The notes beneath the pieces are model-generated. The model was not told where the DNA came from, made no database searches, and saw nothing but the letters and a program-made list of their open reading frames with translations. Below, piece after piece: positions 49,131 to 63,189 of a DNA stretch of 64,000 bases. Positions within the stretch are counted from its first letter, which is position 1, and every line of letters starts with the position of its first letter. The DNA comes from Halobacterium jilantaiense. GTDB lineage: Archaea > Halobacteriota > Halobacteria > Halobacteriales > Halobacteriaceae. The translations under genes and the position numbers were made by a program. The stretch lies in NCBI RefSeq assembly GCF_900110535.1, contig NZ_FOJA01000002.1, forward strand, positions 62,001 through 126,000, read 5' to 3'.

Positions 49131-49556
49131 ATGGAGATCGGCTTGGTGAGCTGTACGAAAGCAAAGGTGGATTCATCGTCGACGCCGAGGAAACTCTACG
49201 AGCCCTCTGCGTTGTTCCGGAAGGCTCGAAGCTACGCTGAGGAGAATCATGACGGGTGGTACGTGCTTTCGGCGAAGTACCATGTTCTCGATCCAGACGG
49301 CTCGCCGATCGAGCCCTACGACAAGACGCTGAACAACGCTAGCGTTGAAGAGCGGCGGGAGTGGAGTCAAAACGTCCTCAAACAGCTACGAGAGCGCGAC
49401 TTGCTTGCAGGGGGGAACACGCTCGTCATTCATGCCGGGAAGTCGTACTACGAGGAACTCCTGCCGCTGCTCGACGACAAGCCCGTCGACGTCAAGATTC
49501 CGACCGAGGGACTACGGATGGGAGAGACGCTGTCGTGGTATAATGAACGAATCTAG
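49131..49556 (+). CDS. DUF6884-domain protein
   Basis: About 141 residues from the ATG at 49131 (another ATG lies 15 bp upstream). Motifs of the family: IGLVSCTKAK at the N-terminus, LYEPSALFRKARSYAEEN, and WYVLSAKYHVLDPD, followed by PIEPYDKTL. The fold is thought to resemble YaaA-like proteins with a conserved Cys/Lys start; the biochemical role is unknown. It overlaps the next gene (tandem GIY-YIG) by 14 bp, so the two are translationally coupled. Confidence 0.8.
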   Translation: MEIGLVSCTKAKVDSSSTPRKLYEPSALFRKARSYAEENHDGWYVLSAKYHVLDPDGSPIEPYDKTLNNASVEERREWSQNVLKQLRERDLLAGGNTLVIHAGKSYYEELLPLLDDKPVDVKIPTEGLRMGETLSWYNERI

Positions 49557-50406
49557 GTTCCACGCCGCCGATTGGCTCGGTGTCAACTGGTCGAACTGGG
49601 GGACTCTCGATCCCGATGGTGACCATCTATCTACGTTCTCCACTGACGAGGGTCTCTACCGTATTCGCCACCCCGCCCGTGCCGGACTGGAGTACATCGG
49701 TGAGACTGGGCGGAGCCTTCGCGGGCGTGTTCGTTCGCTCGCCCACGGGGCGTTCGCTGACGAAATGCCGTATCGCGATCCACACACCGCGGCACCGTGT
49801 ATCTGGGCTGTCCAGCAGGAGGACGGCGAGAAGCTGGAGGTATCGGGTGCGACGCCGACACTCGCAGAGGACAAGCAGGCCCGAAAGGCGTTCGAGGACG
49901 CGCTGATTGCAGTATACCGACGCGAAACGGGTGAGAGTCCGACAGCGAATTTCGGTCGGATCATCAACGGCTACCGGCAGTCGACGTATCGCAGCGGAGA
50001 GGAACGCGGCGGCCCGCTTGAACCGGGTGAGACGGAGTCCAACACAGAGGATGGCGTTGGGCCGCTTGATTGGAGCAGGAGCGACGACGTGCTATCGGAA
50101 GACTGGATGGGCCTTTGGTGGGCGTCGCCGCGACCGCTGGCAAAGGCGGATACGTCGATTCCGACGGATGACGGGCTATACCGAATTTGGCGCGAGGACG
50201 AGGCACCACCTCTGGAGTACATCGGGCAGAGCTCGAATCTCAAGTCACGGCTGTATCGCCACCGGCGGAACCGGGATGAGACGTTGCTGTTCTCTTACTC
50301 GGAACTTGGGGAGCACGACGCTCAGCACAAGCGCGAGGAGGTTGAAACGGAGCTTATCGGTGTTCACTGGCTGGAGGTTGGGAAGAGTCCACGAGATCAG
50401 TTCTAA
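49543..50406 (+). CDS. Protein with two GIY-YIG-like nuclease domains
   Basis: A 287-residue protein with two repeated units. Unit 1: EGLYRIRHPARAGLEYIGET then RSLRGRVRSLA (residues ~35-65). Unit 2: DGLYRIWREDEAPPLEYIGQ then SNLKSRLYRHR (residues ~205-240). Each shows the GxY...YIG core plus a downstream Arg typical of GIY-YIG endonucleases. The two-nuclease arrangement suggests paired cuts or one active and one binding domain. It follows the DUF6884 gene by overlap and precedes Hachiman by 95 bp. Confidence 0.7.
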   Translation: MNESRFHAADWLGVNWSNWGTLDPDGDHLSTFSTDEGLYRIRHPARAGLEYIGETGRSLRGRVRSLAHGAFADEMPYRDPHTAAPCIWAVQQEDGEKLEVSGATPTLAEDKQARKAFEDALIAVYRRETGESPTANFGRIINGYRQSTYRSGEERGGPLEPGETESNTEDGVGPLDWSRSDDVLSEDWMGLWWASPRPLAKADTSIPTDDGLYRIWREDEAPPLEYIGQSSNLKSRLYRHRRNRDETLLFSYSELGEHDAQHKREEVETELIGVHWLEVGKSPRDQF

Positions 50407-50501: not shown

Positions 50502-51419
50502 ATGGAGAATGAAATAGAAGTTCCTTGGTCAGAGCACACCGTAATCGAGGAGTCAGAATTACTGGATAACCTCTCTGATGCTGGTGAATGGGGTGAAGAC
50601 AAAATCAAGGCGTCCTCTTTCATCGTCAGCCCAAGTTACGGAACCTTGGATTATGACGGCTTCGTGAGTTTTCTTCGGAACAAATTCATGTTCTTTGCGC
50701 TGTCGGAAGAAGAGATTCAGGAGTCTGAACGCCCCCATCTTGAAGCGCAGCAGCTCTCAGATTACAAGGATGATGCTAAGATGGATGGCAAGTGGGGGGA
50801 GCTGATTCTATTTACGATGGTTGAAGGTTTCCTTGACATCCCTATGATGTCACACAAGCTTGGATGGAAACAGAACCCAACTGACCAAGTAAAGGGGTCT
50901 GACGGTCTCTTCTTCGGGGAATACGAAGGAACTCCTACGTTGGGAATTGGTGAGGCAAAAATGTACACCGATTTGGATAGTGGAATTGAGGAAGCTCTTG
51001 ACAGCACAGATCGATTCCACGGAGAAGATAGTCAACTCCGAAATCAGCACGAGCTAACGGTTGCTATGGGTAATCCGAGCGACAATCTCTCGAAAGAGAA
51101 GATCGAACTGCTTTCATCTCTTTTCACAGGTGAATCTCAAGATTATCAAATGTTGCATCCCATCTTCGTTGGGTATGAAGATGAGGAGCTGGAGGAATTC
51201 CAGACAAAGCCGGTTGAGGACGATCAGGAACTAGTAGACCAGCTCCAAGACCATGTTGAGGATACTGACTTACTCTCCAAGGTAACGGACTCTCTGGAGG
51301 ATGACTACAGTCATCTTCGAAAGCACTGGCTGACCTTCTTTTTCCTCCCTCTAGAGGACAAAGATCGGTTTGTAGAGAACGTCAAAACGGCTATCTACCC
51401 CTGGACGACGAACCACTAA
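50502..51419 (+). CDS. hamA: Hachiman anti-phage protein HamA (DUF1837)
   Basis: A 305-residue protein with the HamA/DUF1837 signature: DGKWGELILFTMVEGFLDIP (near 98), VKGSDGLFFGEYEG (near 130), and LGIGEAKMYTDLDSGIEEAL (near 147). The E/D...E-x-K residues match a PD-(D/E)XK nuclease. In Hachiman HamA is the nuclease effector held by the HamB helicase. It shares a TAATG junction with hamB. Base composition is clearly more A/T-rich than the flanking genes, pointing to recent transfer. Confidence 0.88.
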   Translation: MENEIEVPWSEHTVIEESELLDNLSDAGEWGEDKIKASSFIVSPSYGTLDYDGFVSFLRNKFMFFALSEEEIQESERPHLEAQQLSDYKDDAKMDGKWGELILFTMVEGFLDIPMMSHKLGWKQNPTDQVKGSDGLFFGEYEGTPTLGIGEAKMYTDLDSGIEEALDSTDRFHGEDSQLRNQHELTVAMGNPSDNLSKEKIELLSSLFTGESQDYQMLHPIFVGYEDEELEEFQTKPVEDDQELVDQLQDHVEDTDLLSKVTDSLEDDYSHLRKHWLTFFFLPLEDKDRFVENVKTAIYPWTTNH

Positions 51420-53998
51420 TGTCTACTACATACGAAAACGCAGCGGACCTAGAATTCTTTAATGAATGTCTCGATACACTGATAAAAGATCTGCTCTATA
51501 ATGATCTCGGCGTTACTGATTATCGTTGGGATCACAATTCGGAGAGTAAACTCCAAAAGAGTGCTTGGGTAGCATCACTTCTCGCGTCCAGCGATGACGA
51601 GGAACACCAGTCCAAGGCTCTTTCTTTTGCGATTCTCGCATATATTGAGAAGCGAGGGACTGATGACGAGGAGATGTACGAACGGTACCTCTATATTGTT
51701 CTCTCTCGCATCGGAAATCTTCAAACGTTCAATACTGTTCGGCGAGAACAAGCAGATGTAAGCTTTGAGGAGAGGCTCATTTCATCGCTTGATTCTGCGT
51801 TGGGCCTTGAGCTGAGCTCTGACCTCCAGCAGCACGAGCTCGGTGATGGGACTGTACTGTCCTCCTTTCAGAAGGATATCCTAAATGCCCTTCAGGCAGG
51901 GAAGGATATCGCGATATCCGGTCCGACATCTTCCGGGAAGTCATTCATACTCCGGAAATATATCCAGAGAGAGCTTGAAAACCAGGATGGTTTTGAAGCA
52001 ATCTACGTCGTCCCGACTAGAGCACTCATTGCGGAGGTGAGTGAGAAACTCTCCAGTCTTAACGACTATCTAGAGGGAGAGCAAGAGATTGAGGTCAGAA
52101 CCGGCGCATATTTTGAGGAGGAATCGGAGGACCCAGATACAGATTCAAACTCGTTCTTGGTAGTTACACCTGAGCGGTGTCTGCGGCTCATTGATGAGGA
52201 CACTAGGGCGAGAATTGACCCAGACCTGATATTCTTCGACGAAATCCAGAATATCCAAGATGGGCAGAGAGGTGTCTTATTCGAAGATATCATCCAGCTA
52301 CTCAGCGAATCTTGGCCGGAAACTCAAATCGTCGCTGCCGGCCCCTATCTTGAGGAGCCACAGGATACTCTGAGCAATCTGACTGACCGAGAGGTCGTAC
52401 AGATCAAAACCGCATTTACACCGGTCCTTCAGATGAAGGCGATTATGCGGTTCAAGAGCGCAAAAAACCAATCCGGATCCAGGCGGATGGTCGATGTCGT
52501 CCTCTACAGTCCTTCTGGAGACAAATTAGAGTTCACGATAGCCGAACCGGACGATCTCACGTATACGACGGTCAACAAAAGCAAGACTAGAGCATTGACC
52601 ACTATAATCGATGAATATGGGCAGAATAGCCAGAATCTAGTATATGCCAGTAAAACTAATCTAGCTGAGGATCGGGCCGACGCAATCGCGAACAACCGGG
52701 ACCGCGAAATAACGTCTGCGAGAATCGATGAACTCACCGAATTCCTGAAGAATACGATCCACGAAAACTACCCACTTATCGATCATCTTAAAAAAGGAGT
52801 GGCCTTCCACCATGGTCGAGTTCCAAAGATTGCAAGGGAAGAGATAGAAGATCTCTATCGCTCGAAAGTGGGTTTAGACACAATCGTATGTACCTCCACT
52901 CTACTGGAGGGGGTGAACCTCCCCGCGGAGAAAATCTTTTTGACCAGTGCATATCGCGGAGACGATGAGCTGTCAGAACTCGACTTCCAGAACCTCGTCG
53001 GACGGGTCGGCCGCGTTGATTCCCGCTTGTACGGTTCTATCTATTGCGTTGAGGCTGAAGATGACGAGTGGGTAGATGAGAAATTGAATAGCGATACAGA
53101 GGAATCAGTCAACCCTGCTACCTCACAGGCTACTGATAATCCAAACAAACTCATTACCGCGCTCGGAAGCAATGACCTTCGGCAGCTCAAAGATGCCTCA
53201 ACTCGGTACACATCGATTCTCCTTCGTTCTCGTTACCTCAAATCTGACTACGATGTCGACGAATATCTCTCCAACAAGGGGCTCTCAGATTCGGATATCT
53301 CCTCAGCGAAAGACGAACTCGACCGGACTCTCGAAGATATTGAAATTCCGGAGAAACTGCTGAGGCGGAACCCAACTGTCGATCCCGTGGAGCAGAACAC
53401 GCTCTACAGGCTGGTAATGCAGAACCCGGAAAAATGGGTGATTGGTGAGAATACGACAGAATATAGCTATGATAAACTCATGCGGATCACCCAACAGTTG
53501 AATCAGGTCTTCAAGTTCACTAAGGATGATGAATACGGGATTGACCCCCCAAACCGAGAAACCAAGCACGGAGCACTAGAGCCGATAGTGGTAGTTGCAA
53601 ACCAGTGGCTTCGGGGAGAGACCTACCATTCCATGATTGATTCTAGGCAAGCAAACGTTGAGGATGAGGGGCTGAGTAAGTGTATCAGAACAATCCTTGA
53701 CCTCGTGAACGACGACGTTCGATTTATTCTGGTCAAGTATTACGGGATGCTGGTCGATATACTAGAAGAATCCGACTACGAGATGGGTAAGTGGGCAAGC
53801 AACTTCGACCAGATGCTAGAGATGGGGTCGATGAACTTTGGGGAGCTGCGTCTCATGTCGAAAGGTGTAGACCGATCGGTCGCGTTGCAGTTAGGAATCC
53901 CGCCTGGCGTCGATAATGTAGAAGATTTCCTTGAAAACCGCCGAGGGAAGATCCCCGAATTCTTCACTCGACACCTTCAGTCTCAGGGAGTCTTATAG
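51419..53998 (+). CDS. hamB: Hachiman helicase HamB
   Basis: An 859-residue superfamily 2 helicase. Walker A is GPTSSGKS (near 168), motif II is FFDEIQN (near 273; DEIQ box), and the C-terminal motifs include TSTLLEGVNLPAEKIF (near 500) and LVGRVGRVD (motif VI, near 530). The N-terminal ~130 residues and C-terminal ~300 residues are the partner-specific extensions of the HamB family. It senses DNA damage or invading DNA and releases HamA. Coupled to hamA by a 1-bp overlap. Confidence 0.9.
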   Translation: MSTTYENAADLEFFNECLDTLIKDLLYNDLGVTDYRWDHNSESKLQKSAWVASLLASSDDEEHQSKALSFAILAYIEKRGTDDEEMYERYLYIVLSRIGNLQTFNTVRREQADVSFEERLISSLDSALGLELSSDLQQHELGDGTVLSSFQKDILNALQAGKDIAISGPTSSGKSFILRKYIQRELENQDGFEAIYVVPTRALIAEVSEKLSSLNDYLEGEQEIEVRTGAYFEEESEDPDTDSNSFLVVTPERCLRLIDEDTRARIDPDLIFFDEIQNIQDGQRGVLFEDIIQLLSESWPETQIVAAGPYLEEPQDTLSNLTDREVVQIKTAFTPVLQMKAIMRFKSAKNQSGSRRMVDVVLYSPSGDKLEFTIAEPDDLTYTTVNKSKTRALTTIIDEYGQNSQNLVYASKTNLAEDRADAIANNRDREITSARIDELTEFLKNTIHENYPLIDHLKKGVAFHHGRVPKIAREEIEDLYRSKVGLDTIVCTSTLLEGVNLPAEKIFLTSAYRGDDELSELDFQNLVGRVGRVDSRLYGSIYCVEAEDDEWVDEKLNSDTEESVNPATSQATDNPNKLITALGSNDLRQLKDASTRYTSILLRSRYLKSDYDVDEYLSNKGLSDSDISSAKDELDRTLEDIEIPEKLLRRNPTVDPVEQNTLYRLVMQNPEKWVIGENTTEYSYDKLMRITQQLNQVFKFTKDDEYGIDPPNRETKHGALEPIVVVANQWLRGETYHSMIDSRQANVEDEGLSKCIRTILDLVNDDVRFILVKYYGMLVDILEESDYEMGKWASNFDQMLEMGSMNFGELRLMSKGVDRSVALQLGIPPGVDNVEDFLENRRGKIPEFFTRHLQSQGVL

Positions 53999-54060: not shown

Positions 54061-55221
54061 CTAGCCCATCGCCTCCTGGAACCGTTCACGAAGCGCATCC
54101 TCGCGCTCCTCGAACTGACCGACCTTCTCCTGCAGGTCGTCGCTGACTCGCTCGATACTCGCGAGCGCCCGCTCGCCGGCGAGGGATGCTTGCGATCCGT
54201 CGTCGCCGTCCCCCTCCAACTGCTCCTCGTAGGCCTGCTCGACGCGCTCGATGGTTCCCTCCGGGTTGAACAGGATGTCGTTGGCAATGCGGACGTACTG
54301 ATCGAGGGATGCGCCCTCCTTCCCTTGGAAGAAGTGGGTGAGTGCGTACGTCGCGCCGGAATGCAGTGTCCACATATCGATCTCGAAGGGAGACGCCGCA
54401 TTGGCTTCTGCATCGCCAGCGGCACGCTCGGCCAGGTATTCCGGGAAGCCCAGCAGCGTGTAGAACTCCGTGACGGTGAATGGGAGCTCTGAGAAGTCAA
54501 GGTCGATGTCTTGAGCGTCCCGGATGAATTCGAAGAGGTCGTCGGCGACGAGTTCGACCTGTGCGAGGAGCTCCTCCCACCAGGTCCGGAAATTCCGCAC
54601 GTCGCCGACGTGCTTGATGACCTCTTTGTCGGTGAGCGAGCGCATCGTGTTCGAGCAGTAGCCGTCCTGGGCGAACCCCTCCACGTAGACGGCGTGCTCG
54701 CCGAAGAAGTCGTAGCCCGACGTGACGCCCATCGTGATCGGGTCCGATCGGCCGGGGAGACGCACCTCGAGGCCGTCGAACATGATGTCCATGTGGACCT
54801 CGCCGCCACCCCGGTAGCGCCGAATTTCGCCGAACATCACCTCGCCTAGCGGCGTCCCGTCGATGGTCTCCTCGCGGAGGACCTCCTCCAGCGGGCCGTA
54901 GACGTCGACCGGGTTGATGATCGAGTAGGAGTCGGTCGGGATATGGAACAGCGGGTCCGTCTCATCGTCCGATTTCTGGGCCTGCGAGCGAGCCCGACTC
55001 GGTTCGACGAGCGCATTGAACCGCTCCGTTTCGACCCACTCGTCGGTGTACGGATTCTGGTACGCCACGGTCGTTTCGACGGCCTGCGGGAGCTCACGAA
55101 TCGCTTCGGCGAACGTCACGATTTCTGCATTCCCGCGACGCTGTCGGTACCACTCGGGTAGTTCGGTGTCGGTACGCCCATCGACGCCGGCGAAGATGGT
55201 TCTGGACTCTGGATCTTTCAT
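54061..55221 (-). CDS. DUF932-like plasmid protein
   Basis: A 386-residue protein with features of DUF932 phage/plasmid-like proteins: TDSYSIINPVDVYGPLEEVL near residue 97, GEVHMDIMFDGLEVRLPG near 140, GVTSGYDFFGEHAVYVEGF near 165, and a C-terminal coiled coil (ERVSDDLQEKVGQFEERE). Such proteins accompany plasmids and phages and are thought to act in DNA metabolism; the role is not established. It is convergent with hamB and divergent from the tandem nuclease gene. Confidence 0.7.
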   Translation of the reverse strand: MKDPESRTIFAGVDGRTDTELPEWYRQRRGNAEIVTFAEAIRELPQAVETTVAYQNPYTDEWVETERFNALVEPSRARSQAQKSDDETDPLFHIPTDSYSIINPVDVYGPLEEVLREETIDGTPLGEVMFGEIRRYRGGGEVHMDIMFDGLEVRLPGRSDPITMGVTSGYDFFGEHAVYVEGFAQDGYCSNTMRSLTDKEVIKHVGDVRNFRTWWEELLAQVELVADDLFEFIRDAQDIDLDFSELPFTVTEFYTLLGFPEYLAERAAGDAEANAASPFEIDMWTLHSGATYALTHFFQGKEGASLDQYVRIANDILFNPEGTIERVEQAYEEQLEGDGDDGSQASLAGERALASIERVSDDLQEKVGQFEEREDALRERFQEAMG

Positions 55222-55360
55222 TGCAGCACCTCAGAACAGGAACGGTCATCGACGAGCGCCTGCATCGTCTCGCGCCCTGCGCCCCTCTCCCGGGCGCAAA
55301 AACAACGCCAACGCGAATAGGTGGTTGTCTGGTTGTTCAGGTGCACTGCCCCCTGCTGAG

Positions 55361-57448
55361 GTGGATACCGCAACTGGGTTCAATAGAACCGGAACGCTTA
55401 CTCGCTATGACAAACTCCAGTCAACTATTGTGGCGTCATTCCTTGAGGCATTGGCCAAGCAGCGAGCTTGGCACTGGCTGGAGGAGTCTAAGGGATACAC
55501 AGTCGATGGTGAGGTCAATATCGGGACTGGTCGCATCGACCTGCTCGCGGAATCACCGTCGGGAGAGATTATCGGGGTCGAGCTGAAGCGAGCATCTGAA
55601 TTCGGGCTCGATAGAGATATTTATGCCCAAACTCATCGGTATCTCGACAGCGGAGCCCTCGATCAGTTGTACTTTGCTGCTCCCGACGCCGACAAACTTG
55701 GGACCAATCCGGAATCGGATCCTGTCGACCAGATGAGTATCCGTGCGATAAGCTATCGGTTAGCTGCGGGCGTTGATGAGGACTGGTACACACCGTCGGA
55801 GGTCATCACTCACATTCGAGATGCGATCTCTACAGACTTTCTTGCCTACTCGCTGGAGCATCGTACCGTTGAGGACCTAATTCGGCAGCTGTTAGGTCGT
55901 TCCCCCGAGGACAACGAGCCGATTTCTCTTGACGAGGCCGCTCAAGAGCTACGACGTACACGACTTCCGGAGGAGTTGGGTGTGATTCAGGTCCCAATCG
56001 AAAAGAACGGATCTAAATCCGACTTTTCGAGCCTGCTTACTCCCGGTGACGGTCCGACGCCGTCGATCGTCCGGGATGCCGAGCCAGTATGTGCTGGCGA
56101 TGATACCACTGGCCAGATTTCCTCGATTGAAGAACCGTGGGTGCGACATCATACTTGGACTCATTTTGGCGGCATCCCGGAAGCCCAGATCCCGAATGAC
56201 TTGGAGTCGGACACGCCCACCCGTCCAATCGACATTCTGGCCTTCGAAGGGGATATTGATCCGACTGCAGCGGTCGAAACTCCCGAATCGAATGCCGTCA
56301 TCGGTATCGAGGCAAAGGGTGAGAGCTCTTTTCCGGGTTCTCGGAAAACCGAGCAATTAGAACAGTTCTTAGCAACTGAAACTCTTTCAAAACTCTATCT
56401 TGCTGTTCCAACAACGCTTAGCGAGCGCGCAGTCACGTTTCTTGAGCAGCACGGATTTGATACAGTTGGCCTCATCACCGTAGACGACACCGGTGTCGTC
56501 GACATCGTTCGCGAAGCGACGCATCAGACGCCGAAGTACGATGGCTACCTAGAGAATCATCATGAACGGAAGGTCGGGTATGGAGATCTCGAATTCCCGT
56601 GGCTTGAGCCAGTATCGAACCTATACCTCACCGAGGAAGAAGCCGAACGGGTCGAGCATCCCGACCCCGTCGCTTACGCGAAACCCATTATCGAGTCAGC
56701 CGACTTGGATGTGTCCGCAGGGAGCTGGCTTGACATTGACGACTGGACAGGTTCCGACCGAACAGAAGATGAGTTCTCAAAGGAGCGAGTGCGATACTAC
56801 CTCCTCCGTGGAGTGAAAGCTGGCCCGTACCTCCTCGACTCCGATGTCGACCAAGATGAAATGATGGGCGGCTACACTCGCTTGGCCTTGGAGTGGTTCG
56901 AGGATACTGACGAGCCAGGGCTAAAGTTGAACTTTGGCGGTGGTTCGTGGGTGGGTGGATATCTCTGGTTCACTGGCGAGACTATCCAACAGCTGCTCAC
57001 GGTTCTGCTGAACATTACGAATCTCAATGGGGCGACGATCCGTGGACAGGGCAAAGTGATCGATTTGGCAACATTCCCGATTCGGGGCGACAGTGAACAC
57101 CTTCGGCTGCAGGGCCGCTTCGGGGAGGAGGATCTCTTAGAATTAGAGATCCGGAGTCTTGTCGACGAGGCCGAAGGCGACGAAATCTTCGAGGTGGACT
57201 TAGGTTCGGGGGAGAAAGCCGGCGTGACGGCGCAGTTTACCGAACCACAGTGGTACGATTTGGTGGCTACGCTGGATCACCTGCTGGCTGGTGGCACGTA
57301 TCGCGGGCTGCCTGGGGAGTTTGACTCGACTCCACGCATTGGCCCGTTAGGTGAGGACACCTGGGACATCGGGACAGATATTGAGGAAAGGTCGAATCCA
57401 GTCTCGATTGAGATGCGCAACTCGGATACCGACTTCCTCACGGAATAG
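55361..57448 (+). CDS. Protein with two PD-(D/E)XK-like nuclease domains
   Basis: About 695 residues from the GTG at 55361; longer frames upstream overlap the divergent gene and lack homology. Domain 1 (~25-130): GTGRIDLLAESPSGEIIGVE then LKRASEFGLDR, a D...E-x-K site. Domain 2 (~275-400): RPIDILAFEGDID, then VIGIEAKGESSFPGSRKTEQ, a second D...E-A-K site. Both are followed by a similar strand (DQLYFAAPDAD and SKLYLAVPTT). The C-terminal ~260 residues form a beta-rich domain. I do not recognise the full-length family. Confidence 0.65.
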   Translation: MDTATGFNRTGTLTRYDKLQSTIVASFLEALAKQRAWHWLEESKGYTVDGEVNIGTGRIDLLAESPSGEIIGVELKRASEFGLDRDIYAQTHRYLDSGALDQLYFAAPDADKLGTNPESDPVDQMSIRAISYRLAAGVDEDWYTPSEVITHIRDAISTDFLAYSLEHRTVEDLIRQLLGRSPEDNEPISLDEAAQELRRTRLPEELGVIQVPIEKNGSKSDFSSLLTPGDGPTPSIVRDAEPVCAGDDTTGQISSIEEPWVRHHTWTHFGGIPEAQIPNDLESDTPTRPIDILAFEGDIDPTAAVETPESNAVIGIEAKGESSFPGSRKTEQLEQFLATETLSKLYLAVPTTLSERAVTFLEQHGFDTVGLITVDDTGVVDIVREATHQTPKYDGYLENHHERKVGYGDLEFPWLEPVSNLYLTEEEAERVEHPDPVAYAKPIIESADLDVSAGSWLDIDDWTGSDRTEDEFSKERVRYYLLRGVKAGPYLLDSDVDQDEMMGGYTRLALEWFEDTDEPGLKLNFGGGSWVGGYLWFTGETIQQLLTVLLNITNLNGATIRGQGKVIDLATFPIRGDSEHLRLQGRFGEEDLLELEIRSLVDEAEGDEIFEVDLGSGEKAGVTAQFTEPQWYDLVATLDHLLAGGTYRGLPGEFDSTPRIGPLGEDTWDIGTDIEERSNPVSIEMRNSDTDFLTE

Positions 57449-57459
57449 CCACAGTTAGC

Positions 57460-57594
57460 TTACTCGTCGGTCGCCTGGTGCTTGGGTTCGTGCCGGTTAT
57501 TATACCGCTCCAGTTCGCGCCCGATTTTCTCGAGCGCCTCGACACCACGTTCGAGGAGCTGGTGGGTGGCTCGCGCCAGTCGAAGTGTCTCCAT
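57460..57594 (-). CDS. Short basic/acidic helical protein (44 aa)
   Basis: A 44-residue ORF (METLRLARATHQLLERGVEA) whose ATG overlaps the previous stop as TGATG, so it is coupled to the 211-residue gene. It is amphipathic and helical. The coupling argues for a real gene; function unknown. Too short for most gene finders. Confidence 0.5.
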   Translation of the reverse strand: METLRLARATHQLLERGVEALEKIGRELERYNNRHEPKHQATDE

Positions 57595-58229
57595 CAGTGC
57601 TCCCCCTCCGGGGGTTCGATGAGGTCGTTGCTCTCTTCGGCGAGTTCCCGGATTACCCGTTCCACGTCAGCCTCCTCGGCAACCGTCCGATGTACGAGCG
57701 GAGCAGGATATACACGGTCGCCCTGGCTGCAGAGAACGACCAGCCAATCGTCGCTTCCATCCCCGAGTACGATGTAGTGGTCGCGATCAGCGCGTTGGAA
57801 GACCCGCCGGTCCGGGCGAGAGACGGTTCGCCAGTTCTCGGGGAGCGTTGGTGACGGCCGTCCACCGTCGGGGAGCGCGACGACGTCGTCGGTAATGGTC
57901 GCCATCGCGGCGTCGATCTTCTCGCCAGTGAGGTGCCAGCACGCCGCTGCACCGTCACACTCCAACTGTGAGACCACCTGATTCCGGAACGCGATGTAGT
58001 GCTCACGGGCGAACTGCGCATCGTCGTAGTAGTCGAGCAGGAGTGCGCACGCGACGGTGACGGCGCCGCCGGCCAGGGCGAGCTCGACGAGGCCCAACGA
58101 AGCGAGTACAAACCCGACAGGGGCGTACGTAACCAGCGACGCGCCGTAGTGACCGAGTCGATGTACAGCCGAGTGTAGGCAGCGGTAGGCCTTCAGTTGT
58201 CTGCTGCCCCAGTAAAGACACTTCTCCAC
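57594..58229 (-). CDS. Membrane protein of haloarchaeal plasmid type, unknown function
   Basis: A 211-residue protein. Two hydrophobic segments (~27-45 and ~48-65) follow a short basic N-terminus, and the rest is a soluble acidic domain (CWHLTGEKIDAAMATITDDV, YIVLGDGSDDWLVVLCSQG). I do not recognise the family. It is followed by the coupled 44-residue gene. Confidence 0.6.
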   Translation of the reverse strand: MEKCLYWGSRQLKAYRCLHSAVHRLGHYGASLVTYAPVGFVLASLGLVELALAGGAVTVACALLLDYYDDAQFAREHYIAFRNQVVSQLECDGAAACWHLTGEKIDAAMATITDDVVALPDGGRPSPTLPENWRTVSRPDRRVFQRADRDHYIVLGDGSDDWLVVLCSQGDRVYPAPLVHRTVAEEADVERVIRELAEESNDLIEPPEGEH

Positions 58230-61458: not shown

Positions 61459-62156
61459 CAGACTCACACGCTCGTACCCTCGAGACGCTTCGAGACATCG
61501 ACGCCCGCCTCCACCGGCTGTTTGAAGTCGTCGACGAGACTGATGAGACAGCAGCTCCACCGGATGCAGATCCGCTCGCCACACTGAGGCGCGCACGCTC
61601 GCAGGTCGACGCTGCACTGCTTGAGCACCAGCGCCAAGCAGCCGATGACATACGTCCTGGCGGTGGGTCGTGTGTTCTCCAATGGAATCCACCCGGTACG
61701 CCGCCGCGGCGACTGGTCCTCGACCCCGACAGCGGTGGCGACGGTTGGACTCGCCGTGAACTTGAGTGGACTGGCTCCGGCTGGCGGATGTGCGGACACG
61801 ACACTGTCCACGATGTTGCGATCAGTGCTCCTGCGGAACCACGCTATCCAGACCCCGTGGATCCCCCGACACTCGACACGCTCCTCGAATGGATCCGCGG
61901 CACTTGGCCGCACCCTGATCCGGATGTTCTCGTCTTCGATTCGACGGCGACAGCCGAACAAGGCGTGGTTGCGGCTGTCGACGATGAACTGCGATACCGC
62001 GAGCAGGATAGCCACCAGTGGTACACTGTCACCGACAAGGAGGAACTCTACCACCACCTCCAGCAGCAAGGCCAGCCCGCTGTCCAGTCGCTGTCAGAGA
62101 CGCCGCTGACGCGCCTGCAGTTCACTCCAAGCCCACTCACCAATGACGACGGATGA
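61455..62156 (+). CDS. Unknown 233-aa protein of nuclease operon
   Basis: A 233-residue acidic protein. The N-terminal ~70 residues are helical (RLHRLFEVVDETDE), and the remainder is beta-rich with many Trp (CVLQWNPPGTPPRRLVLDPD, LEWTGSGWRMCGHDTVHD). I do not recognise the family. It overlaps the genes on both sides (4 and 14 bp). Confidence 0.65.
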   Translation: MTDSHARTLETLRDIDARLHRLFEVVDETDETAAPPDADPLATLRRARSQVDAALLEHQRQAADDIRPGGGSCVLQWNPPGTPPRRLVLDPDSGGDGWTRRELEWTGSGWRMCGHDTVHDVAISAPAEPRYPDPVDPPTLDTLLEWIRGTWPHPDPDVLVFDSTATAEQGVVAAVDDELRYREQDSHQWYTVTDKEELYHHLQQQGQPAVQSLSETPLTRLQFTPSPLTNDDG

Positions 62157-63189
62157 GCACACTCCAGAGGAGTACGATGGCCGCCTGAGCCTGCTGACGG
62201 AGACAATCGAGGCACTCCGTAAAATGCTCGAGAGTGACCATTCGCTTCCCACCGACCAACGGATGTTCGCCCGTCGGCTTCTCTTCCTCGCGAGCCAGCC
62301 GATTACTGAAGCCGAACGGATGCTGCCCAAGCCAGACCGAGATGCTGACTCAGCAGACGAGCGCACTCCTGATTCATCGGATGACTACGCTGATGCAGTC
62401 ACCCACATCGAACGGCAGTTGTGCTGGCTGATTCGCTCACTCCGAACTGTACAGCCACCAGCCCACCACTACGACGAACAACCCGCCGAGAAGTTCACAA
62501 CAGCCCTCGAGTACGCCACAGCCCTCCGAGACATTCTGTCATCGGTCCCGGAAGACAGCCCGATTCTCGCCGACGCAGAGGACATCAATCCCGACAACGT
62601 TGATCCGCACGTCGGGGGGCGTGGTAATGGTGATGGACGGTGGCTCGAGTATCAACTTGAGCGTGCACTCGGACGCTGGGGATACCGTGCAGCGACACGC
62701 CAGCACCTCTACAGTCTGGAGGTAGATGTCGTCGCTAAACGACGGGAGAAACAGCAGCAGCCCAGCGACTGGATTGTCGCCCAGTGTAAAGATTGGACAG
62801 ACGACCCAATCACACCGACGGCGCTCTTCCGGTTGTGTACGGTGGCGTTTGCCTGTCGTGCGATGCCGGTGCTCTGTCACACGACTGAGCTGACGCCTCG
62901 GACCGAGAACTTGGCGCGTGAACTCGAGGTGCGCGTGCTTGAGCTACCAGATCTGGAGCGTGCAGAGCTGCCTGCCCCACAGATTGCCAAACCGACGATG
63001 GAATTCCGAGAGTGGGAGCCACAGTACCGGGCTCGCGATGATCGTGGCAGGTTCCCGTTGATGTTCCGCAGCGAGCCAGGGAAACGCTTCAGCTACGTTC
63101 CCGGGTTCAAGCCAGTCGGCAAAGACGCTGACTACGAACCGATCGAGAATGATCGGGATGGCGATGCGCATCCCGCTTCTGGCCATTAA
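62143..63189 (+). CDS. Mrr-like restriction endonuclease
   Basis: A 348-residue protein. The nuclease core lies at ~165-260: GRWLEYQLERALGRWGYRAA, then LYSLEVDVVAKRR (Asp of the site) and WIVAQCKDWTDDPITP (Q-x-K in place of E-x-K, as in Mrr-type enzymes). The N-terminal ~130 residues are helical. Mrr enzymes cut foreign or modified DNA. No methylase gene is next to it. It overlaps the preceding gene by 14 bp and closes the operon. Confidence 0.8.
   Translation: MTTDEHTPEEYDGRLSLLTETIEALRKMLESDHSLPTDQRMFARRLLFLASQPITEAERMLPKPDRDADSADERTPDSSDDYADAVTHIERQLCWLIRSLRTVQPPAHHYDEQPAEKFTTALEYATALRDILSSVPEDSPILADAEDINPDNVDPHVGGRGNGDGRWLEYQLERALGRWGYRAATRQHLYSLEVDVVAKRREKQQQPSDWIVAQCKDWTDDPITPTALFRLCTVAFACRAMPVLCHTTELTPRTENLARELEVRVLELPDLERAELPAPQIAKPTMEFREWEPQYRARDDRGRFPLMFRSEPGKRFSYVPGFKPVGKDADYEPIENDRDGDAHPASGH

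Follow-up and report, generated by a model that had tools for sequence, protein, structure and literature searches.

A plasmid cassette of Halobacterium jilantaiense encodes a protein with two PD-(D/E)XK modules that may act in DNA conflict

Here we describe a single gene, carried as a swappable cassette in a widespread haloarchaeal plasmid backbone, whose product joins two PD-(D/E)XK modules to a C-terminal domain resembling the PUR/Whirly fold. The gene lies in a stretch of 64,000 nucleotides from Halobacterium jilantaiense, termed the window, which belongs to a 132.8-kb contig (Table 1). The parts of the protein are known, and their combination is new to the libraries searched and the papers found: no model of Pfam, NCBIfam, PHROG or PADLOC covers the double-nuclease protein, and searches of the literature returned no published description of such a family. 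Little is known of archaeal defences beyond CRISPR and restriction-modification (PMC12988326), and we consider the evidence about evenly balanced as to whether this protein is a plasmid-carried, single-gene DNA-conflict nuclease directed against viruses or rival plasmids.

Table 1. Positions of the features discussed; coordinates are those of the window unless a locus (L) is named.
Feature	Position	Strand	Basis or remarks
HamA and HamB (Hachiman), separate cassette	50502..53998	+	Pfam/PADLOC
386-aa plasmid backbone gene, flank	54061..55221	-	found in 52 plasmid records, most without the nuclease
One-gene cassette in conserved plasmid backbone	55311..57487	.	DNA homology break against plasmids L058-L064
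Double-nuclease gene, probable start	55430..57448	+	672 aa; 695 aa from the earlier start at 55361
Module 1, PD-(D/E)XK	55433..55696	+	residues ~25-112; E51, D60, E74-x-K76, Q90-x3-Y94
Helical linker between modules	55697..56116	+	residues 113-252; predicted secondary structure
Module 2, PD-(D/E)XK	56117..56536	+	residues ~253-392; E274, D291, E317-x-K319, Q332
C-terminal PUR/Whirly-like domain	56768..57298	+	residues ~470-646; (4 strands + helix) twice
DUF6166 gene, other backbone flank	57594..58229	-	Pfam PF19663; common to nuclease-less plasmids
Mom-like two-gene cassettes	L058:4745-5829, L059:4745-5829, L061:4625-5829, L063:4188-5356, L064:4832-5829		
Beta-propeller genes	L030:6985-7974, L031:6998-7930, L033:6971-7927, L065:7876-8805, L118:6668-7603		

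Two PD-(D/E)XK modules

The key residues of module 1 (E29, E51, D60, E74-L-K76, Q90 and Y94, followed by LYFAAP) and of module 2 (E258, E274, D291, E317-A-K319 and Q332, followed by LYLAVP) vary little or not at all across 14-17 relatives. The E, D, E-x-K and Q of both modules are kept in relatives down to about 25-30% identity, and every relative covering them keeps all the acidic and lysine positions. Comparison of the modules within the one protein gave 33% over 72 aa by BLASTP (E=1.6e-5) and a probability of 98.2% in profile-profile alignment (hhalign, E=2.9e-14); on these sequence comparisons the modules are homologous, with a likeness beyond chance. An earlier, sequence-only reading of this DNA had proposed two similar D...E-x-K modules, each with a matching LYFAAP or LYLAVP strand, and both are indeed there; its limits need one correction: the beginning of module 2 lies about 20 residues before the position given there.

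Structure prediction and fold search, which that reading had put forward as a check, found the PD-(D/E)XK core in both modules, neither being without it. The full-length model (mean pLDDT 77.5) has the order helix, three strands, helix, strand in each module, and conservation together with predicted fold places the core (alpha-beta-beta-beta-alpha-beta, with D...(D/E)-x-K) in both. PDB 3dnx was the top fold match for each, then PaqCI and XisH, with Z scores for module 1 of 13.6 (3dnx, in the whole model), 9.8 (PaqCI), 9.7 (XisH) and 8.8 (NucS). Module 2, folded separately at pLDDT 86 and pTM 0.84, matched 3dnx at Z 11.9 (121 residues at 2.6 A) by structural realignment, a step that was needed because Foldseek alone gave only weak PDB matches for this module. 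At the level of sequence, the Pfam matches of the protein (MTES_1575, NucS_C and PDDEXK_9) were weak and all below cutoff, a PDB sequence search returned no relative, and PADLOC v2.0.0 profiles gave no family match (best E 0.019, LmuA). Folds, conservation and profile searches thus support the earlier proposal of a fused pair of PD-(D/E)XK sites outside curated families, and the protein is likely, on its motifs and modelled folds, to have metal-dependent nuclease activity.

The known systems that it resembles differ in architecture. Viral MmcB-like models match, as 3dnx does, yet there is no MmcB profile match, and 3dnx and the MmcB-like proteins are single small domains with neither tandem fusion nor a PUR/Whirly domain. 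Module 1 shares G-R-I-D-L...E-L-K...Q-x3-Y with NucS/EndoMS (Z 8.5-8.8, 22-24% identity), whereas here two nuclease modules stand on one chain with another C-terminal domain. Identity with NucS was ruled out because the N-terminal NucS domain is absent (module 1 begins at residue ~25 with nothing folded ahead of it) and because scores fall far below the family cutoffs (12.9 against 24 bits for NucS_C, 13 against 216 bits for PRK04247). PaqCI and BsmI have the PD-(D/E)XK fold, the BsmI match spanning both modules (216-224 residues, Z 6.3-6.5), but the overall likeness is weak and the cassette described here holds no methyltransferase. HamA, a nuclease of the same superfamily with a weak fold match to module 2 (Z 4.5), differs in having a single module, a helicase partner and a separate cassette. 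In the copy on plasmid pJ7-I (L026), ten residues (EGDIDPTAAV) are tandemly copied in frame near module 2.

C-terminal domain

Predicted secondary structure agrees with the earlier description of a large beta-rich C-terminal domain. Its model resembles the PUR/Whirly fold of two beta4-alpha halves, with matches to PURA (Z 9.6), WHY1 (9.4), WHY3 (9.2) and the trypanosome proteins MRP1/MRP2 (8.2); this match is one of fold only, Z values near 9 are moderate and parts of the domain have low pLDDT. Pfam gave no sequence match for the domain, and no likeness between its two halves was detectable in sequence. PUR-alpha, Whirly and MRP1/MRP2 are single-stranded nucleic-acid binders; the fold is alike here (Z 9.2-9.6 for PUR-alpha/Whirly) but fused to nucleases. 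Several shorter relatives (about 350-560 aa) are without this domain, which indicates that the family can do without it. One of 507 aa (L018) ends instead in a zinc-ribbon-like cysteine stretch, and a relative from another class of the phylum has an AN1 zinc finger at its N-terminal end.

Gene start, cassette and plasmid backbone

An open frame of 695 codons occupies 55361-57445 of the forward strand, with its stop at 57446-57448, so that a frame of the size first reported is present. Translation probably begins at the GTG at 55430 (residue 24) instead of at 55361, because the Met of diverged relatives aligns exactly at residue 24, the 69 bases upstream (55361-55429) scarcely vary among close relatives, even at third codon positions, and residues 1-25 are poorly modelled (unfolded, pLDDT <50). 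Purifying selection acts on the gene (dN/dS 0.13-0.23).

Seven plasmids share the backbone and lack the nuclease (L058-L064). Their DNA homology with the window breaks off at 55306-55310, and six of the seven become homologous again from 57488; from these borders it follows that the nuclease gene is alone in its cassette, and this comparison with empty sites bears out the earlier suggestion of a one-gene unit. No methyltransferase or immunity gene is present in the cassette, and none of the gene tables, which are incomplete, annotates a methyltransferase within 8 kb in the plasmid loci. An ordinary restriction-modification pair was ruled out on the lack of a methyltransferase in the cassette. 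The divergent 386-aa neighbour was rejected as a partner since it is a backbone gene of plasmids that are mostly nuclease-less; it has relatives in haloarchaeal tailed viruses.

In the nuclease-less plasmids the same slot holds other cargo: a Mom-like DNA-modification gene with a zinc-finger-like companion in L058, L059, L061, L063 and L064, a metal ABC transporter in L060 and genes without recognised function in L062. The Mom-like gene comes first, and the second gene ends in the zinc-finger-like stretch. The Mom assignment derives from a PF25680 match (E about 2-4e-5) that lies below the Pfam cutoff (24 against 27 bits). Mom-like genes were present in 25 plasmid records, with no overlap with the nine records carrying the nuclease, and the genome of the nuclease itself had no Mom match.

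Relatives and their neighbourhoods

Among 392 genomes of the order, 15-16 contain relatives of the nuclease, as does one genome elsewhere in the phylum. Close copies (92-95% identity) are carried on plasmids of several haloarchaeal families, among them pJ7-I of Natrinema sp. J7-2 (94-95%; locus NJ7G_RS18190). No copy was found in phage records, nor in viral contigs, the latter by scans able to find close relatives only. The copy on a Haloarcula plasmid (L025) is interrupted and annotated as two genes, which indicates that the nuclease is dispensable there. More distant relatives have SIR2-HerA and Argonaute in their vicinity, adjoin the BREX genes BrxA and BrxC or, in two genomes, lie near HerA-NurA-Mre11-Rad50. 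A candidate defence protein, PDC-S39 (DUF4209), is encoded near the nuclease on pJ7-I (L026:13216-15006). Related proteins of 466-469 aa with a HEPN-like R-x4-H stretch, recognised by eye, adjoin or lie near other nuclease relatives (L070:1328-2734, L119:2056-3453), in L070 next to BREX.

In one branch (L030-L033, L065 and L118) a divergent beta-propeller gene of 310-330 aa sits beside the nuclease relative, and among plasmids this gene was found only with that branch. The nuclease relative of L071 has, immediately upstream and in the same direction, the gene of a 759-aa protein that combines beta-propeller with HEAT-like parts. The beta-propeller family is haloarchaeal, has C-terminal cysteines and includes relatives of ~740 aa. 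Solo members occur in other haloarchaea (L088-L103); several have UvrD-type helicase genes next to them and one has Mre11/Rad50-like genes there, as judged from the starts of the sequences. A search of the nuclease's own genome, run without a positive control, found no beta-propeller gene. As a general partner the beta-propeller was ruled out, because its nuclease partners form another branch and relatives of it occur solo elsewhere. The earlier statement that the nuclease stands alone is thus accurate for the window's branch, which has no partner, and does not extend to this other branch.

Proposed function and alternatives

The active sites, the folds, the selection and the cassette nature have been established by computation; we infer cleavage, a preference for single strands, the target and the sparing of host DNA. 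Two homologous PD-(D/E)XK domains on one chain would form a built-in (intramolecular) dimer, allowing one protein to cut both strands or to make two cuts. The PUR/Whirly-like domain would probably direct the nuclease to single-stranded or branched DNA such as arises when viruses or plasmids replicate, and the enzyme may act against viruses or competing plasmids. This reading is favoured by the conserved catalytic sets, the nuclease folds, the PURA/Whirly/MRP fold and the low dN/dS, by the exact cassette borders, the other cargo in the same place and the spread of close copies across families, and by the neighbourhoods of relatives (SIR2-HerA and Argonaute, BrxA/BrxC, HerA-NurA-Mre11-Rad50) with Hachiman nearby. 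Another haloarchaeal plasmid family is reported to carry defence systems near its core (PMC10818511). Against it stand the resemblance of the module folds to repair nucleases (NucS, MmcB-like), the lack of a cognate methyltransferase or immunity gene in the cassette, the absence of the C-terminal domain from several relatives, the purely structural nature of the match of that domain (Z 9-10) and the disrupted copy in L025. Defence neighbours are, moreover, common on haloarchaeal plasmids in any case.

A possible though doubtful alternative is that the nuclease serves plasmid maintenance or repair, resolving branched or mismatched DNA in replication or recombination, and has no part in defence. 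The likeness of module 1 to NucS/EndoMS and to MmcB-like repair proteins agrees with such a role, as do the HerA-NurA-Mre11-Rad50 genes adjoining two relatives and the established place of PUR/Whirly-type domains as single-strand binders in DNA maintenance; however, most plasmids with this backbone lack the nuclease and its slot also takes unrelated cargo, which argues that maintenance does not need it. It is unlikely that cutting falls to one module alone, with the other serving in DNA binding or regulation: the modules have diverged to about 30% identity, with an insertion between D291 and E317 in module 2, but the complete retention of acidic and lysine positions in both modules argues against the loss of either site. 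Still less probable is a modification-dependent (type IV-like) nuclease cutting hypermodified DNA, such as that of plasmids with Mom-like genes, since the alternation of the two cargoes without a shared record, the lack of a Mom match in the nuclease's own genome and the missing methyltransferase are offset by a common slot that makes exclusion trivial, a sub-cutoff Mom match and the absence of any recognised modified-base reader domain in the nuclease.

The reading as a DNA-conflict nuclease can be widened, speculatively and with more doubt than belief, to a new archaeal family of conflict systems in which a tandem PD-(D/E)XK nuclease is combined with exchangeable sensors (the PUR/Whirly domain, a zinc ribbon, an AN1 finger or a separate beta-propeller protein) and its slot trades with a Mom-like DNA-modification cassette. 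If so, plasmids would be equipped to cleave foreign DNA or else to mask their own. The slot, which alternates between the nuclease and a Mom-like DNA modifier, itself makes it possible to test whether plasmids exchange DNA weapons and shields. Because the active sites are clear, the borders are clean and J7-2 carries the pJ7-I copy, nuclease activity, the role of the second site and any exclusion of viruses or plasmids are directly testable; auxotrophic mutants of Natrinema sp. J7-2 have been made, and J7, the parent strain, serves as a virus-host model (PMC4454726, PMC5350488).

Hachiman and other genes of the window

Hachiman lies near the nuclease both in the window and in pJ7-I, and the sequence-only reading had set the two side by side. 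The Hachiman span is missing from L025, L027 and L029, all of which keep the nuclease; this proximity is therefore incidental, given a separate cassette and three close relatives in Hachiman-less plasmid loci. Membership of Hachiman was ruled out, as the nuclease is inherited apart from HamA and HamB. Elsewhere in the window, a 348-aa protein (62143-63189) with no Pfam or PADLOC match contains a D...Q-C-K stretch like that of Mrr-type nucleases (LEVDVVAKR...IVAQCKDW). Directly upstream of HamA, inside the Hachiman cassette, the gene at 49345-50406 encodes two GIY-YIG-like stretches (GLYRI...LEYIG, twice), seen by eye, and is a second tandem-nuclease candidate.
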